The notes under the pieces are model-generated. The model searched no databases and was not told the origin of the DNA. It worked only from the letters and a program-made list of their open reading frames with translations. Below, in pieces: positions 44,208 to 62,964 of a stretch of DNA of 64,000 nucleotides. Source of the stretch: Deltaproteobacteria bacterium (lineage in GTDB: Bacteria; JAGRBM01; JAHCIT01); assembly GCA_026129095.1 (NCBI GenBank), contig JAHCIT010000001.1, positions 372,245-436,244 on the forward strand. The letters run 5' to 3'. The translations under genes were made by a program, and so were the position numbers. Within the stretch, counting starts at the first letter, position 1. The number at the start of each line of letters is the position of its first letter.

Positions 44208-44720
44208 ATGCCAAAATCAAAAGAACCTGCCAAGAAACCTTCCCGGTCCCAAAAGAAGGCGGCCCCTGCCGGTGTGCCCTTAGCAAAAGAGTTCAGTGAC
44301 CAGCAGAATCTGCGTATCGTCAAGGACTTTTTCAGCCTGACAGAATCGCTTGACCTCGACCGGGCGATGGGATTCTTCTCTGAGAACGCCGTTTATCACA
44401 ATATTCCATTACCGCCCGCTCGCGGGAAGCGCCAAGTGGAACGTACACTCCGGAGCATGATGCAGTATGTAACCGGTTTTGAAGTCCAGATGCTTCATAT
44501 CGCCGCTGGCGACGGCGCGGTGCTCACCGAGCGCATCGACAGGATTACTGTGGGTCCAATCAGGATCGAACTGCCAGTAAGCGGAACTTTTGAAATAAAA
44601 GACGGACAAATCACCGCCTGGCGGGACTATTTTGACCTGATCCAAATGTTCCGTCTCATGATGCCGTCACTGGGGGAAGTTGCCGCCCGGAGCCTGAAAG
44701 GGTTTCTGCCGTCCCGGTGA
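44208..44720 (+). CDS. Limonene-1,2-epoxide hydrolase-like protein
   Basis: A 170-residue protein of the LEH branch of the NTF2/SnoaL fold. The five active-site positions of limonene epoxide hydrolase are matched: Tyr63 and Asn65 (VYHNIP), Arg109 and Asp111 (TERID), and Asp140 (WRDYFD). So it probably opens epoxides with water; the natural substrate is unknown. The first 28 residues are a Lys/Ala/Pro-rich extension. GGAG lies seven bases before ATG 44208. It follows mrpG by 38 bases and its last 65 bases overlap the convergent CPA2 antiporter gene. Confidence 0.85.
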   Translation: MPKSKEPAKKPSRSQKKAAPAGVPLAKEFSDQQNLRIVKDFFSLTESLDLDRAMGFFSENAVYHNIPLPPARGKRQVERTLRSMMQYVTGFEVQMLHIAAGDGAVLTERIDRITVGPIRIELPVSGTFEIKDGQITAWRDYFDLIQMFRLMMPSLGEVAARSLKGFLPSR

Positions 44721-47193
44721 TTCCCAGAGCACCCATGAGTTCTTCAGCATTGGCGGCCGCAATGGCGCGTCCCACTGCCTCCGATGACCGGATCGAGCGG
44801 GCGATATCCGCGAGTACATCCAGCCGCTCCCGTGCGTAATCCAGCCGGGACGGATTGAGTACCACAAAAACAAGCCGGGCCCCTTTCACGGACGCCGGTT
44901 GCTCGAAGACTCCCGCTGAACTGCACATGAGAACAGCGGGTTCTTCCAGCGCCCCGTAATCACCGTGAACGACAAATACTCCTGGTGTAACCTGAACTGC
45001 GGAGGCCAAGAGGTCATGAGTGATCGAGTCCGGTAATGGATAGTACAGATGAAGCCCCGGAGACGCTTTTTCCAGAAGCTTCTGCAATACAACTTGCAGC
45101 GAAGTATCCTCTGCGTGAACTATCACCCGCTCAGGATTGACAAGGCCCGCCAGCCGCGAAACCTCGGCTGCCTTTCCGGCCACCGTCATGGTGGCAGCGG
45201 CCGGTTCCGGCGGATAGGAAACCACGAAATTCACGTCCGGGAATCTCTCGGCGATCTGCCGGGGCATCCTGTCCAGAGCCGCCCTCCATCCAAGGCTGCC
45301 CTCACGTGGAGCGTACAGCAGCAAGAGATCATTGGAGGTAATCCGGTCTGCCAGTGCCTGCTGGAGCCCATTCCATGATTCGATGGTTTCGATCTTGAAC
45401 TCCGCCGCCGGTTTTGCGGCCCCAAGTTGCCGCTTGATTACCTTTTCCGCCTGCCTTTCCCCCAGAACAACTACAGGACAGGACAACTTGGCGGCGATCA
45501 TCTTAACGGTGGAGGCTACAGCCAGAAAGCCGGGCTCACGCTCGGCACGGGGCGGAATAGCCAGTACGATCCGGGTCATCGTGTTCAACGGGTGCATCAG
45601 GCGGGCGACCAGCAGTTGGGGCTCCGAATCGTCAAGAAGCTTCTCCAGCACAGTTCCAAACAGACGATTTTGGGCAGATACCTTTCCGGCCCACCCAACA
45701 ATCACATGGGATATCCGAAGCTCCTGACGGGCACGCATGATGGCGGCCGCCGCATTGATATCAATGCGGGTAACCGCACGGGTCGGAACGTCTGCAGCGG
45801 TCAGCTTCATCACCGCTCTGGCGAGCATTTTTTCCGCATAGACGACATTTTCACTGGCCCGGCTGTCTTCGTGCACAACCGTAAGCGGATATACTGGCTG
45901 CGCCTGGGTGGCATCACGGATCAGCATGGCAAGGTCCAGAAGCGGAACCGCTGTCTCGGCATTGGACATTGATACCAGAATCCGCTGGGGCGGGATGTCC
46001 TCCTCAGGACGCAGGTCCTCCTGCAGCATTGCCAGATTGCGGCCATGCCGGTCGACAACAAGCGGTGCGTAAACACAGGTGCCGATCATCATGACGATTG
46101 CCCCGTTCACCACCGCATCGTCGAACAGTCCTATCCGGTAGCCAACCATCACTGCCGCCAGTGTTGCGGCCGCCTGCGGCACGCTCAGACCAAACATCAC
46201 CTGGATTTCATCGCGGCTGTACCGGAACAAAATCCCTGAAAGACGGGCAGCTAACCACTTGGTCGCCAGGACCGAGCCCAGCATTCCTATGGATACCGCC
46301 CAGGAACGGAAACCGCTGAAAAATACCCTCACATCCAGCAACATTCCGATAGAAAGCAGGAAAAACGGGATAAACAACGCCTCACCGGTGAACTGCACAC
46401 GGTTCATCAGCGGCCCATCATGCGGAATCAGCCGGTTGAGCGCCAGCCCAGCCAGAAATGCTCCGACAATCGGCTCTATTCCTGCCAGATGAGAAAGACT
46501 GGCCGCCACAAACACCGAGGCTAGGACGAAAATGAACTCTGCCGGGCCATCCGGCCGGACGTTGCGGAAAAACCATCGTGCCAGCCTGGGAAGACCGATC
46601 AGGATAACCGATACGTAAAGACTCATCGACACGCCAAGCTGGAACCAGAAAGCGTCGTCTATCTCCCCCTTTTCGGTCATCCGGGCGATAACGGCCAGAA
46701 CAAGCAAGGCCGCCGTATCCGTAATGATCGTACCGCCCAAGGTCGTCGTCACCGCCTGATTTTTTGCCAGCCCCAGCCGGCTAACGATCGGATAAGCAAG
46801 AAGCGTGTGGGACGCGAACAAACTGGCAAGCAAGATGGCAGCAGGCCAGTCGAATCCCAGGATGTAATGGGCCATCAGGGTCCCTAGGCCCTGCGGAAAC
46901 GCAAACGTCAGCACCCCGAAAACGATACTGTGGAATTTCGACCGCTTGAGGACAACGAGGTCGATCTCCAGTGCAGCTGCGAACATGATGTACAGCAAGC
47001 CGACCGTTCCGAGCAGCACGATTGACTGGTCGCGTGCCAGTATCCCGAGGGCATTGGGGCCCAGAATGGCGCCGGCCAGCAACATGCCGATGGCGCCCGG
47101 AATCCGGTAACGCTCCAGCAGCAGGGGCGTAGTGAGAATAAGCATCGTCACTACGGCAAAAACAATCACCGGATCGGTGATAGGGGAAAGCAT
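44656..47193 (-). CDS. CPA2 cation:proton antiporter with UspA-like and PTS-EIIA-like C-terminal domains
   Basis: An 845-residue protein. Residues 1-385 form a KefB/NhaA-type transporter of about 12 segments (GMLLAGAILGPNALGIL, FFLLSIGMLLDVRVF). Residues about 400-690 hold two UspA-like regions (ILVSMSNAETAVPLLDLAM, then IVLAIPPRAEREPGFL). The last 140 (LLEKASPGLHLYYPLPDSI, VFVVHGDYGALEEPA, ARLVFVVLNPSRLDYARERLDVL) resemble a PTS EIIA type-2 fold, with a His where EIIA has its phosphorylation site. This suggests gating of K+/Na+/H+ exchange by nucleotide or phosphorylation state; that is inference. GGAGG lies eight bases before ATG 47193. Confidence 0.88.
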   Translation of the reverse strand: MLSPITDPVIVFAVVTMLILTTPLLLERYRIPGAIGMLLAGAILGPNALGILARDQSIVLLGTVGLLYIMFAAALEIDLVVLKRSKFHSIVFGVLTFAFPQGLGTLMAHYILGFDWPAAILLASLFASHTLLAYPIVSRLGLAKNQAVTTTLGGTIITDTAALLVLAVIARMTEKGEIDDAFWFQLGVSMSLYVSVILIGLPRLARWFFRNVRPDGPAEFIFVLASVFVAASLSHLAGIEPIVGAFLAGLALNRLIPHDGPLMNRVQFTGEALFIPFFLLSIGMLLDVRVFFSGFRSWAVSIGMLGSVLATKWLAARLSGILFRYSRDEIQVMFGLSVPQAAATLAAVMVGYRIGLFDDAVVNGAIVMMIGTCVYAPLVVDRHGRNLAMLQEDLRPEEDIPPQRILVSMSNAETAVPLLDLAMLIRDATQAQPVYPLTVVHEDSRASENVVYAEKMLARAVMKLTAADVPTRAVTRIDINAAAAIMRARQELRISHVIVGWAGKVSAQNRLFGTVLEKLLDDSEPQLLVARLMHPLNTMTRIVLAIPPRAEREPGFLAVASTVKMIAAKLSCPVVVLGERQAEKVIKRQLGAAKPAAEFKIETIESWNGLQQALADRITSNDLLLLYAPREGSLGWRAALDRMPRQIAERFPDVNFVVSYPPEPAAATMTVAGKAAEVSRLAGLVNPERVIVHAEDTSLQVVLQKLLEKASPGLHLYYPLPDSITHDLLASAVQVTPGVFVVHGDYGALEEPAVLMCSSAGVFEQPASVKGARLVFVVLNPSRLDYARERLDVLADIARSIRSSEAVGRAIAAANAEELMGALGITGTAETLSGSGRQLPPVTAS

Positions 47194-57528: not shown

Positions 57529-57605
<77 letters not shown>

Positions 57606-57876
57606 CCAGTCTCCGTTACCGCCATATTTCTTCCAGAATGACTTGTATTGACAGTATGTTTAAAAATTTGTGTGAATTTACGAAATTGGACTATTCACCA
57701 ACAGGTAAGTATTGCGCTGCAAACAGCCAAAATTATTCATGACGGACAGACAGTCTGATTTGTCATTCATATCAATAGGTTCTAACGTCCCGCCGACTTC
57801 AGAATATATTGTCATTAATGACAATCAGTTTCCTCAGAAGTCATATAGTTTTGATCTAAACAGAAGGACACTCAAG
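57606..57876. promoter_or_regulatory. AT-rich leader with candidate promoter
   Basis: This stretch is clearly richer in A/T than its surroundings. It holds a perfect TTGACA at 57648-57653 (weak -10) and, nearer the gene, a good -10 TATATT at 57805-57810 with a poor -35 (TTCTAA, 57780-57785). The latter -10 overlaps the palindrome at 57808-57825, as an operator would. No gene is apparent here. Confidence 0.4.
57808..57825. promoter_or_regulatory. Perfect 18-base palindrome, likely operator
   Basis: ATTGTCATT-AATGACAAT is its own reverse complement over all 18 bases. The half-site TTGTCATT also occurs singly at about 57760-57767, 49 bases upstream. The palindrome overlaps a TATATT -10 and sits 52 bases before the start of the basic protein gene. 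A dimeric repressor site, possibly autoregulatory, is inferred. Confidence 0.6.
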
Positions 57877-58284
57877 ATGGCCCGCCCCAAGAAACAAGAA
57901 ACTATTCTTAAAGATCTGCTGAAGCTGTCACCTGCTGAGCGCCGAGCGCTCCTAAAGCGGGCAAATTCTGCCGGGAAAGACATGAAAAAGCTGAGGGCCC
58001 GTCGCAAGGAGCTTGTGCGCAACATCCGCAAGCTTGAGAAGGAGCTGGCCAAAGTGGACGCCCAGATGGGGGGTGGCTCCGGCGGTCGTGGAGCTCCAGG
58101 CCGCAAGCGGGGGCCAAGATCCCCCGAAGCCACCCGGCAGGCACGGCTTACCCGTTACACAAATTCAGTTCCCAAGCTGAAGGCTGCCATAGAAAAAGCC
58201 AAAGGTGCTGCCAAAGAGAAGCTCCAGGCACGGCTGGCCAAAGCTGAGCGAATCCTCAAGGAACTGGGCGGCAAGGGCCGCTAG
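57877..58284 (+). CDS. Small basic coiled-coil/AT-hook-like protein, possible nucleoid protein
   Basis: A 135-residue, very Lys/Arg/Ala-rich protein not in a family I can name. Residues about 10-65 are heptad-like helix (LSPAERRALLKRA, KKLRARRKELVRNIRKLEKEL). Residues about 68-85 form a Gly/Arg linker (GGSGGRGAPGRKRGPRSPE) recalling AT-hook or H-NS-type DNA-binding loops. The rest is a second basic helix of KAK repeats. Helix-linker-helix plus strong charge suggests DNA or RNA binding, perhaps a nucleoid-associated protein; this is inference. ATG 57877 has AAGGA eight bases upstream; the open frame from 57712 runs through AT-rich sequence without support. Confidence 0.7.
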   Translation: MARPKKQETILKDLLKLSPAERRALLKRANSAGKDMKKLRARRKELVRNIRKLEKELAKVDAQMGGGSGGRGAPGRKRGPRSPEATRQARLTRYTNSVPKLKAAIEKAKGAAKEKLQARLAKAERILKELGGKGR

Positions 58285-58414
58285 GCCCATAGTTCGGTTG
58301 CGGCCCAACTAATTTGGTTCTATCCGCTACTGCAGGATTGCTTGGGTTATGATGCTGTCTTGCAGTGAAACGACAATCTTGCGGGCCGGGTTAATCGGTT
58401 AGGGGTGGGATCTG

Positions 58415-60916
58415 TCAGAATTCCACTTCTGCTTCCGGCATGAGTTTTCGGATGTCGGTTGCGTTGAGATAAAGCGAAGGCGAACGGTCTTTCACACAAA
58501 GGAAACCGTCTGACAACTCGCCACCAGGCCAGATAACGCGCACCTTGAGGTCAAACCGGAGCATGTCTGCGGTTCTCTCAATGACCTTTGCCTTCTTGGC
58601 GGTGGCCTTGAGCTCGTTTGAAACCTCAGTTGTAAAAAACCGCCAGTTACCGGATGGCTTCGCAGGTGGCTCCGGCTCAGGGGCAGACAAAGACGGCGCC
58701 AGTGGCTCCACTTTCGTTGATCCGGAAATAGCCTGAACTGGCTCCGAAGCGCCGCCGAATACCTCTTCAGCCGACATGATCGCCTCAGCTTCTGCGAGTG
58801 CTTTCTCGGTTTCTTCGGGAGTATTGAAGTTGGTGTACCGCATATCCGCGGCTACTTCGGAATCTGTTTCGCGCATCGCGGGGGGCTCTTCAGGAAAATC
58901 CACCATCTTGGCCGGACGTTCACCAAACAAATCCTCCGCCGTGGAAACATCGTCATCAATGGCAACTGCCTCGTCATCGAAAGCCCTGGGAGCTCCTTTG
59001 GCTATCAGTTCGTCAAACTTTCCAGACGGAGCCGGCGCCTCCCCATTTCGCAATTGGGCTGCCTGCCGGGCATGGACCGACAGTATCTCTCCATTTTTCG
59101 GGAGCGTGGAAATCCCATCCAGGTACGCTACGTCGTCATGGGCATAGGCCTCCCCCTGAGCATCACCCGCATCAATTCCGAGCTGGTCAGGAAGTCCTAC
59201 CGGGTCCGTACGGCCTGGTGCCACATCGGAAATCGTTGCACCGCGGCCGGCAAGCGCCTCTGGATCGGTGAGACTTTCAACTTCACCCAATGCAACTTCA
59301 GTCTCTTCGGCAAACATGGGCTCATCGGCCTCTGATACGCCGTCCAGGCTGGCAGAAACCGGCTTGATATCAGCGTCAGAAATACCCGTTTCGTCCGGAA
59401 ACTCCTCCGGGCTGGCAGCGGCCGGGCTATCGGATATTGCAACCGGTTCTTCTTCCGCTATAGCCGACGTTGATACCTCAACGGGCTCCACAAGGTCTGC
59501 ATTGACTGTTTCGCCCGCCACTTGCGCCGCCATCTCTTCAGCTTGCAATGCAAGCTCAGCAGCGGATTCCGATTGCATAACAGGAGACTGCGCTGGTGCG
59601 GCGGAATCGGAAAGATCCCACTCGCTGCTGGGCGGACTAGAAACTGCTACCGGCACATTACTGGCCGTTTCCTGAGCCAGTGACACTGCTTCAGGATCGT
59701 GAGCAGACTCTCGCTGTGCGCCAGGAGCGGGGGATTGTTCGGACAAATCCCAAGCACCGCTGAACTCATCAGAACCTGTCACGGCCTCGCTGGCCACAGA
59801 CTCAGGCTCCGGGGCCGCCTGAGAACCAGCATCCAAATCCTCGAATGGATTTTCATCAGATGGGGTTTCCGCTGCTTCTGATCCGGATGTACCCGGAGCC
59901 GCATCCAGTTCGGCAAACGGATCTTCATCGGCCGCCACGGGAATAGCGTCCATGGAGGCAGCCTCGGACTGCTGGCCGCTTTCGAAACCGGCAGCGAACG
60001 GATCTTCATCCTCAACAGGCTGAACGGGTCCAGCTGTTGCGGCGGCAACCGGTTCCTCCGGCATTTCCGGTTCAGCTAGCGGCTCCGCCTCCGGTTCTTC
60101 GGGAAGCTCAAGCATTTCATCGGGAGCTGCGTCCGTATTCGCATCAGCGGCCGGCGGTGCCTTGGCTGCCGGGGTTCCGCTTTCATCCACATCGTCGAGA
60201 GACCATGTACGGCCGCTCGTGCTCACCATGAGATCGGCGTCCGGGTCAGTCAAAAAGCCATCGTCCTGCTTGGCAGGTGATTCCGGCTTCTGTGAATCAT
60301 AGCGCTGAAAATCAAGATCGCCGCCGCTCTCAAGATCGGAAAGATCTGTCTTGGCAAGTGGACTCCGGGCCGGCTTGCTCCGGCCCAGTTCGTCGGGAAA
60401 CTGGGCTTTGGCGGCCACATTTTCTTCAGTGCCACCGGATAGATCCGAAAAATCGTCTACTGGCTTGGGAGCTGGTTTCGACTTTGGCTTGACGGGAACG
60501 GAACCGCGCGCCGATGGCTGGGACTTTGCAGCCTGGTCTTCACGGCTTGCTGCAGCGATAATTTCCGAAGTGAAGTGGCGGCTGCTCACTCCCTCCTGGC
60601 CAGTCAGCCGCTGGAGGTTTTCCCGGCCTCCAGCAATCGATACCAGATGAAATCCGTGTTGTGATGGGCGTCCACCCGATATGATCCAGACGCACCGCGC
60701 CGAAATGATCGACCGGTCCGGCATCAGAAAATCCAGCGGCTCGTTTGTTACTTTGGAAATGTACGACTTATAAGCAGGATTGCGGAATGGACCGCTTGGC
60801 GAGCCTGACGCCTGAAACATCAGTCTCAGTAGCGAAAAGTTCGGACCCACAGGCAACCATCGGAGGGGAACTCCTCCACCGGACTGGCCGCCACCTTTCT
60901 TGCTAAAAACTGCCAT
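58415..60916 (-). CDS. Acidic low-complexity protein with conserved-looking ends
   Basis: An 833-residue protein I do not recognise. The first 110 residues look folded (GPNFSLLRLMFQASGSPSG, LDFLMPDRSIISARCVWII), as do the last 85 (NWRFFTTEVSNELKATAKKA, VRVIWPGGELSDGFLCVKD, LYLNATDIRKLMPEAEVEF). Between them are about 600 residues of Glu/Asp/Ala/Pro/Ser-rich disordered sequence. It contains recurring short motifs: DEDPFA twice and DENPFE once (59842-60015 region), and AWDLSE/EWDLSD pairs. The architecture suggests a tether or adaptor with many binding sites for one partner. No signal peptide or membrane segment is seen. Ribosome site weak (GGA at 13 bases). Confidence 0.75.
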   Translation of the reverse strand: MAVFSKKGGGQSGGGVPLRWLPVGPNFSLLRLMFQASGSPSGPFRNPAYKSYISKVTNEPLDFLMPDRSIISARCVWIISGGRPSQHGFHLVSIAGGRENLQRLTGQEGVSSRHFTSEIIAAASREDQAAKSQPSARGSVPVKPKSKPAPKPVDDFSDLSGGTEENVAAKAQFPDELGRSKPARSPLAKTDLSDLESGGDLDFQRYDSQKPESPAKQDDGFLTDPDADLMVSTSGRTWSLDDVDESGTPAAKAPPAADANTDAAPDEMLELPEEPEAEPLAEPEMPEEPVAAATAGPVQPVEDEDPFAAGFESGQQSEAASMDAIPVAADEDPFAELDAAPGTSGSEAAETPSDENPFEDLDAGSQAAPEPESVASEAVTGSDEFSGAWDLSEQSPAPGAQRESAHDPEAVSLAQETASNVPVAVSSPPSSEWDLSDSAAPAQSPVMQSESAAELALQAEEMAAQVAGETVNADLVEPVEVSTSAIAEEEPVAISDSPAAASPEEFPDETGISDADIKPVSASLDGVSEADEPMFAEETEVALGEVESLTDPEALAGRGATISDVAPGRTDPVGLPDQLGIDAGDAQGEAYAHDDVAYLDGISTLPKNGEILSVHARQAAQLRNGEAPAPSGKFDELIAKGAPRAFDDEAVAIDDDVSTAEDLFGERPAKMVDFPEEPPAMRETDSEVAADMRYTNFNTPEETEKALAEAEAIMSAEEVFGGASEPVQAISGSTKVEPLAPSLSAPEPEPPAKPSGNWRFFTTEVSNELKATAKKAKVIERTADMLRFDLKVRVIWPGGELSDGFLCVKDRSPSLYLNATDIRKLMPEAEVEF

Positions 60917-61177
60917 TGCGTTCCAACAGTCCTGCGGGAGAAACCGGCCTTGAACCAGTTTCGATATGCTTTCCTCCCGGTTCGGAGGCTACCCGCCTTG
61001 GACATCAAACATAGTGTGGATAGTGCCATAAGTTCAAACCTGCCTCGGAAGGAAATTCACTGATAAAACCACTATTTCCGGCCACTTCGGGACTCCGATG
61101 CAAATTTTCTTCTCCGGACTGGCATCATGGTTCTCTGCCGTGGCCAGCACCCCAGCCAGCGATTATGCTCCAGTCTA

Positions 61178-62083
61178 ATGAATGGTACACCACTAAAAGC
61201 CGGTTCTGTTCGCATTGCCATCGACCAGTTATCCATGCGGCTGGGCGATTTGGATGCCAATCTCGAAAAGCTGGAGGTGGCAGCCGAAAAAGCGGTCTCC
61301 AAGGGAGCTGGGCTGCTCATCACACCCGAGCTGGGACTGACCGGCTACCATCTGAAAGATGCCGTTTGCGACGTGGCTATCGGACGTGGTTCAACCGTAT
61401 GGAGGCGGCTCGAAAAGCTGTCCAAGCGTATTGATCTTGTCGCCGGTTTTGTCGAGCAATCACGTGCCCACCAGTATTACAATGCCGCAGGATACTTTTC
61501 CGCTGGAGAAACCACCCATGTTCACCGGAAGGTATATCTTCCGACATATGGAATGTTCGACGAGCAGCGGTATTTTGCACGTGGTTCCCGGATTGATGTT
61601 TTTGAAACCCGGATTGGCCGGGTTGCAATTTTGATCTGCGAGGATGCATGGCATCCGTCAGCTGTTTATCTGGCTAGTCTGCAGAACCCAGAGATTCTCA
61701 TAATTCCGTCCAGTTCCCCCATGCGGGGAGTCGCTGCCCGACCCGGAAAGCGGGGGACCCGTCGCGCGGCAAGTTCCGCCGGATGGGAGGAAATGAACCG
61801 GACTTACGCACGGCTGTATTCAGTGCATCTTGCATATGCCAATCGTGTCGGAGTGGAAGATGGCGTTGGATTTTCCGGCGGCTCTCATATCGTCGATCCG
61901 CATGGGCAAACGACCGCGCAGGCTCCTTATGGCGAAGAATTCCTCTTGCTGGCAGACATAGACAAGAGCGACATACGCCGGAGCCGCCAGCAGACGCCTG
62001 TCATCCGGGATGAAAACTTCGAATTTACTTTCAGTGAAATGGAGCGTATCCGGCGTCTTCGCTGGGAACAGGAACCTGGATGA
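61178..62083 (+). CDS. Nitrilase-family glutaminase subunit of NAD+ synthetase
   Basis: A 301-residue carbon-nitrogen hydrolase. The catalytic triad is Glu51 (TPELGLTGY), Lys118 ([10 protein letters not shown]) and Cys154 (ILICEDAW). The insert [22 protein letters not shown] is typical of the glutaminase half of glutamine-dependent NAD synthetases. It releases ammonia from glutamine for the synthetase encoded immediately downstream, whose ATG overlaps this stop. In many bacteria the two are fused; here they are separate genes. ATG 61178 is chosen by homology, and a longer start at 61127 is possible. The 260 bases between it and the divergent acidic-protein gene show no other gene. Confidence 0.9.
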
Positions 62084-62964
62084 GCGGCCGCCGCAAAGCT
62101 TCTGCACTGAACGGGCCTATCAGTTTTGACCCAGCCATATGGCTTGAGCAGCTCATTATTGACGAAGAACTGACGGTACGGATTCTTACGGCATTCCTCA
62201 AGGAAGAAATCTCCAAAACCGGTTCCCGGAAGGCAGTTCTGGGGCTGTCGGGTGGCATTGATTCGGCACTCGTCCTGTATCTGGCGGTGAAAGCACTGGG
62301 ACCGGACAATGTTCTGGGAGTCACGATGCCCTACAGGCAATCGAGCCCACAAAGCCTTGCCGACGCACTCGAAGCAGTACGCGACACCGGCTGCCGTCAT
62401 GAAGTCGTCGAAATCACTCCCCAGATTGACGCCCATTTCAGCCGTTTTCCGGATGCCTCGCGCCTCCGGCGTGCAAACAAGATGGCTCGCGAGCGAATGA
62501 CGATACTCTATGACCTCTCGGCCCGGGATGGTTCCCTCGTTCTCGGCACTTCAAACAAGACAGAACTGCTGCTTGGCTATGGCACTCTTTACGGAGATAT
62601 GGCGAGCGCACTCAATGCCATTGGTGATCTCTACAAGACGCAGGTATGGCAGCTCTCCCGTTATCTGGGCGTGCCGGATTCCATTGTAAAAAAGCCGCCG
62701 ACCGCTGACTTGTGGGAAGGCCAGACAGACGAGGCTGAGCTGGGATTCACCTATGGACAGGCAGATGCCGCACTGTATCTTTTCATTGAAGAACGCCGGA
62801 CCCGTAATGAAATTATCGCGGCCGGGATACCGGAGACATTCTGTGATCTCATTCTGAGAAAAGTGCGGAGTTCCCAATTCAAGCGGCGGCTTCCGGTCAT
62901 CGCCAAACTGGGATCACGCACCATAGACCGTGATTTCCGCTATGCCCGCGACTGGGGAATGTAG
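62080..62964 (+). CDS. nadE: NAD+ synthetase
   Basis: A 294-residue adenine-nucleotide alpha-hydrolase that amidates deamido-NAD to NAD+. The PP-loop is [10 protein letters not shown] (SGGIDS at 57-62), [15 protein letters not shown] and [18 protein letters not shown] follow, and [20 protein letters not shown] binds the nicotinate end. It would take ammonia from the upstream glutaminase-like subunit; ATGA overlap couples their translation. Length fits the synthetase domain alone. It is followed after a gap by the cobalamin riboswitch. Confidence 0.96.

Follow-up and report, generated by a model that had tools for sequence, protein, structure and literature searches.

A small basic orphan protein encoded behind an AT-rich leader with an imperfect inverted repeat

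A short gene for a strongly basic protein, preceded by unusually AT-rich DNA, raises the question of what kind of protein this is and whether the DNA in front of it controls its expression. We analysed this locus within a window of 64,000 nucleotides (the whole stretch of DNA under study, to which all coordinates refer). A previous sequence-only reading had placed a 135-residue ORF downstream of a tRNA gene, and both are present: a tRNA-Met gene with a CAT anticodon lies at 57529-57605 on the plus strand (ARAGORN; Rfam RF00005, 77.6 bits), and the ORF occupies 57877-58284 on the same strand, with its ATG at 57877 and its stop at 58284. An SD-like AGAAGG (57862-57867, plus strand) is located 9 nt 5' of the ATG. 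The tRNA gene is the 5' neighbour of a 271 bp leader (57606-57876, plus strand) that separates it from the ORF, and on the other side the ORF is convergent with an 833-aa ORF on the minus strand (58415-60916). The stretch between the convergent ORFs (58281-58420) folds as RNA at -48.7 kcal/mol (z -2.05, reached in 5 of 200 shuffles) and is possibly a terminator common to both.

The ORF has a codon score of 0.267 bits per codon, within the span of 38 reference ORFs (0.126-0.394), and the other two forward frames have negative scores. However, the codon-aligned antisense frame scores 0.21 against 0.27 for the sense frame, and because these values are nearly equal, codon usage gives only modest evidence for the strand. 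We rejected an N-terminal extension of the ORF, as codon usage in the leader is below background and the upstream starts, inspected by eye, have no SD-like site. The leader is open in frame over 56 codons (57709-57876, with an ATG at 57739); the negative codon score of this stretch argues that it is non-coding.

The encoded protein is of low-complexity composition, with a predicted charge of about +27.5 and a pI of 11.5. It can be divided into a coiled coil (residues 36-64), a Gly/Arg/Pro linker (residues 65-82) and a basic C-terminal helix (residues 83-132). The heptad score of residues 36-64 was reached in none of 5,000 shuffles, while the heptads of the C-terminal helix are unremarkable (P 0.10-0.17). 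An internal duplication was considered and rejected (P 0.145, not significant). AlphaFold, run on the single sequence with no alignment, predicts helices at residues 5-15, 19-63 and 83-132 with a mean pLDDT of 80.6 (84-95 in the helix blocks) and a pTM of 0.31; because of this pTM, the relative arrangement of the helices should not be read from the model. None of the matches to Pfam, PHROGs, NCBIfam and PDB sequences was strong (best E 0.0061), and most were of a coiled-coil or low-complexity type. A Foldseek search of the predicted structure against the PDB gave no match, and neither profile nor structure searches recognised a sequence-specific DNA-binding domain.

The charge, the heptad pattern and the predicted helices favour the earlier description of a basic, helical, nucleic-acid-binding protein. 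That description had also included an AT-hook-like Gly/Arg linker. A Gly/Arg/Pro linker is indeed present, but the AT-hook resemblance is weak: the linker reads GRKRGPR and is without RGR, the core motif of AT-hooks is GRP, and the AT-hook family (PF02178) has no match in the protein up to E = 1. Judging from its heptads and predicted helices, the protein is probably a dimer joined by the coiled coil of residues 36-64, and composition and heptads together point to a largely non-specific nucleic-acid binder.

We searched for relatives of the protein and its surroundings. At E ≤ 1e-4, only its own genome matched among 386 genomes, and at E ≤ 0.001, two of 60 genomes matched (its own and G005). 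The order to which the genome belongs was represented by one other genome (G001), the next nearest being related at the level of the domain only. The best match in G001 (E 0.002) lies inside an ORF, at locus L047, which we take to be dnaX-like, an assignment made without a profile search, and the match was rejected as a homolog on that account. Also rejected were the G005 match (L004), whose ORF reads as a lipoprotein-like frame of 100 aa, and two weak matches in the protein's own genome (L002 and L003), whose ORFs do not resemble relatives. These four loci are the candidates whose ORFs were read, with L048 left out. No homolog was found in scans of genome contigs, viral contigs and phage records, and in G001 no comparable ORF was seen by eye in the stretch beside the ortholog of the 833-aa gene or in that beside the best tRNA-Met match. 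Since no homolog was found among the sequences searched, neither the protein nor the leader has support from conservation. Short proteins of low complexity are poorly detected by such searches, and a fast-evolving ortholog could therefore be missed.

The neighbouring genes were also inspected. The 833-aa protein has no Pfam match and has a long acidic low-complexity middle; its N-terminal ~150 aa are conserved, with 45% identity in G001, and this conserved part had no match in the genome-contig scan. Further along, at 61127-62964, a carbon-nitrogen hydrolase ORF shares 4 bases with a distinct NAD-synthase ORF, and the glutaminase-like and synthetase parts are apparently encoded as two genes. 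A mobile element or tRNA-integrated island was rejected, as no further copy of the tRNA 3' end was found in the window (allowing up to 3 mismatches) and none of the leader elsewhere in the genome.

The ORF might be spurious, or might be a gene that arose recently between other genes in AT-rich DNA and has no function. The failure to find homologs, the low-complexity composition and the similar score of the antisense frame favour this reading, but the 135 codons are used as elsewhere in the genome, and this usage, the SD-like site and the non-random heptads speak for a real gene, and we consider a spurious or dead ORF distinctly unlikely. The ORF itself, its composition and its heptad pattern are established.

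If the gene is real, to which class of proteins does it belong? According to PMC6936261, H-NS, Lsr2 and MvaT share a module order in which a coiled-coil-like helix in the N-terminal half is followed by a basic linker, and H-NS and Lsr2 have a Q/RGR minor-groove motif. The 135-aa protein resembles the H-NS/Lsr2/MvaT/Rok proteins in being small and in having a coiled-coil-like helix in its N-terminal half followed by a basic linker, and, as in that family, its own gene is accompanied by AT-rich DNA. It differs from them in that none of its 19 Pfam matches up to E = 1 is to a model of these families, and in that its C-terminal part is predicted to form one long helix rather than a folded DNA-binding domain. 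Unlike in H-NS and Lsr2, QGR and RGR are absent from all 135 residues.

A second comparison is with small basic proteins of other kinds. The chlamydial histone H1-like proteins HctA and HctB are small, helical and rich in Lys, Ala and Arg, and the 135-aa protein is alike in all of these respects. However, it has no match to Pfam Hc1 or Hc2 up to E = 1, and its Gly/Arg/Pro linker is placed centrally, between two helical parts. With HU/IHF (PF00216) it has in common that it is a small, basic, putative nucleoid protein, but it has no match to that profile and its predicted structure is all-helical. Three HU/IHF-family genes are present elsewhere in the genome, and the protein is therefore not a stand-in for a missing HU. 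As the profile and Q/RGR tests fail, we keep it out of the H-NS-like and H1-like families; the resemblance to H-NS and to histone H1, as read from the sequence, is one of design and not of descent. We group it broadly with small, basic orphan proteins of probable nucleic-acid-binding function.

What, then, does the leader do? It was described before as AT-rich, and its GC content is 37.3%, compared with 57.7% in the window. The 13 lowest-GC windows of 200 bp (step 20) in the 64 kb all overlap it, and its GC content is the lowest among the 26 gaps of at least 50 bp listed between long ORFs. A TATATT at 57805-57810 (plus strand) is a possible -10 box, but a promoter scan found no plus-strand site and no convincing -35 partner for TATATT.

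The central claim for the leader had been a perfect 18-bp palindrome, ATTGTCATTAATGACAAT, which is found exactly as claimed at 57808-57825 (on neither strand in particular) and overlaps the TATATT as had been reported. The same half-site was said to recur upstream. A copy does exist, TTGTCATT at 57760-57767 (plus strand), but it is partial (8 of 9 bases) and lies in the 5' arm of the hairpin described below. A first-order Markov model with the composition of the window (60 simulations) predicts 0.37 perfect palindromes of 18 bp or longer in every 64 kb, and the window has two: the leader palindrome and one of 20 bp at 45750-45769. In simulated 271-bp leaders of the real composition, an 18-bp palindrome occurs with a probability of 0.0011 (20,000 simulations). 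The palindrome is thus unremarkable for the window and unusual for its location. The 20-bp palindrome, CCGCATTGATATCAATGCGG, is located within a long ORF on the minus strand (44656-47193).

A genome-wide search for the palindrome had been proposed as a check, and its outcome gives no regulon. The perfect site occurs only once in the genome of 3.67 Mb. When up to 3 mismatches are allowed, the 18-mer has three sites including its own, and the core TGTCATNNATGACA has 12 including its own at a limit of 1 mismatch; a control with the reversed pattern gave 0. Given a uniform-base estimate of ~8, we read the 12 core sites as near chance, despite that control. All of the other sites, for 18-mer and core, sit within ORFs of at least 60 aa, often on both strands. 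At one of them (L040), an ORF at 173-1654 covers the match provided that the match sits at locus position 1057, which its contig position implies. With no other intergenic site found in the genome, a regulon for the palindrome was rejected. Among 60 genomes, three including its own contain the 18-mer if up to one mismatch is allowed, and both foreign sites are inside ORFs. The palindrome sequence was not found in the literature searched.

These results bear on the proposal that the protein recognises the palindrome as a specific operator overlapping the -10 box, thereby repressing the promoter of its own gene. The overlap with TATATT fits this proposal, as do the presence of an imperfect 22-nt second copy 49 bp upstream and the restriction of the palindrome to this one gene, which would be expected of a dedicated autoregulatory operator. 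However, the possible -10 box has no -35 partner, and the upstream copy is explained as a hairpin arm. The idea of an operator bound by the protein itself has no specific support, given the lack of a recognised specific DNA-binding domain, the lack of a second site outside ORFs and the position of the motif within a larger hairpin-forming repeat, and we regard it as unlikely. The palindrome could instead be an operator for a regulator encoded elsewhere, with the basic protein merely its target. Perfect two-fold symmetry over 18 bp generally suits a dimeric helix-turn-helix regulator better than a non-specific basic protein. Such a regulator is usually encoded beside its site or has several sites, whereas the 11 further one-mismatch core sites and two weaker 18-mers are all in ORFs; this arrangement also seems improbable to us.

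The leader contains an element that is missing from the earlier note, an imperfect inverted repeat with arms of 30 nt at 57760-57789 and 57795-57824, which are complementary at 23 of 30 positions across a 5-nt gap. The repeat includes most of the palindrome, which is in the 3' arm. None of 400 and none of 5,000 simulated leaders reached this complementarity, and only one of 5,000 did so when the palindrome was kept fixed. The window contains no other repeat of its type (arm 30, spacer up to 12). A reading of the same sequence as a direct repeat (17 of 22, spacing 49) is weaker, as 2.5% of simulated leaders reach the same. These features of the leader and their rarity are established.

As RNA, the inverted repeat is predicted to fold into a 73-nt hairpin (57756-57828, plus strand) at -19.5 kcal/mol (z -4.39, reached in none of 200 shuffles), although this stretch was picked after the repeat had been seen. 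Since the repeat folds in this way, a 5'-UTR hairpin explains the leader as well as a DNA operator does. The hairpin may control translation or stability of the mRNA, possibly with the protein bound to it as in ribosomal-protein feedback, and the symmetry of the 18-mer would then be a by-product or an alternative fold. Ribosomal-protein leaders are an autoregulatory hairpin type of leader, and by this analogy the present locus may be similar in encoding a basic nucleic-acid-binding protein behind a structured leader; it differs in that no Rfam family matches the leader. Control through RNA is consistent with the z-score above, with that of a wider stretch (57735-57850, z -2.98), with the rarity of the repeat among simulated leaders and with a small hairpin of the palindrome itself (57800-57833, -7.0 kcal/mol), which is mutually exclusive with the 73-nt hairpin. 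Against it, the entire leader has a z-score of only -1.21, the 73-nt stretch was selected post hoc, and there is neither an Rfam match nor a set of relatives for covariation. We hold this RNA reading as a tentative possibility.

Taking the protein and its leader together, we judge the prospects to be even that the gene encodes a lineage-restricted, small, basic, helical nucleic-acid-binding protein and that the leader repeat acts in the expression of this same gene. The orphan protein would probably form dimers by way of its coiled coil (residues 36-64), and its Arg/Lys-rich linker and C-terminal helix would probably bind DNA (or RNA) with little sequence specificity. Because binding of this kind is proposed, the protein would work like small basic nucleoid proteins. 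For the inverted repeat, the most likely role is in expressing this gene alone, whether it works within the 5' UTR as a hairpin or close to the promoter as a DNA site, and it may serve in feedback. We infer the expression of the gene, the dimerisation and nucleic-acid binding of its product and any regulation from the features described above. Weighing against this explanation are the failure to find a homolog, the antisense codon score, the pTM of 0.31, the three HU/IHF genes, the lack of a recognised strong promoter and the z-score of -1.21 for the leader. The more specific proposal of a new nucleoid protein type, a coiled-coil dimer with a basic Gly/Arg/Pro linker and C-terminal helix that limits its own level by binding the leader hairpin or the palindrome, appears decidedly improbable. 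The readings considered here overlap, and the confidence placed in them need not sum to one.

At present the 135-aa gene is a single orphan gene. If its product is an abundant chromosome-coating protein, it would mean that small basic nucleoid proteins arose independently once more, in a sparsely sampled lineage, and the AT-rich leader with its inverted repeat would offer a ready assay of whether it is on DNA or on RNA that proteins of this type sense their own level.
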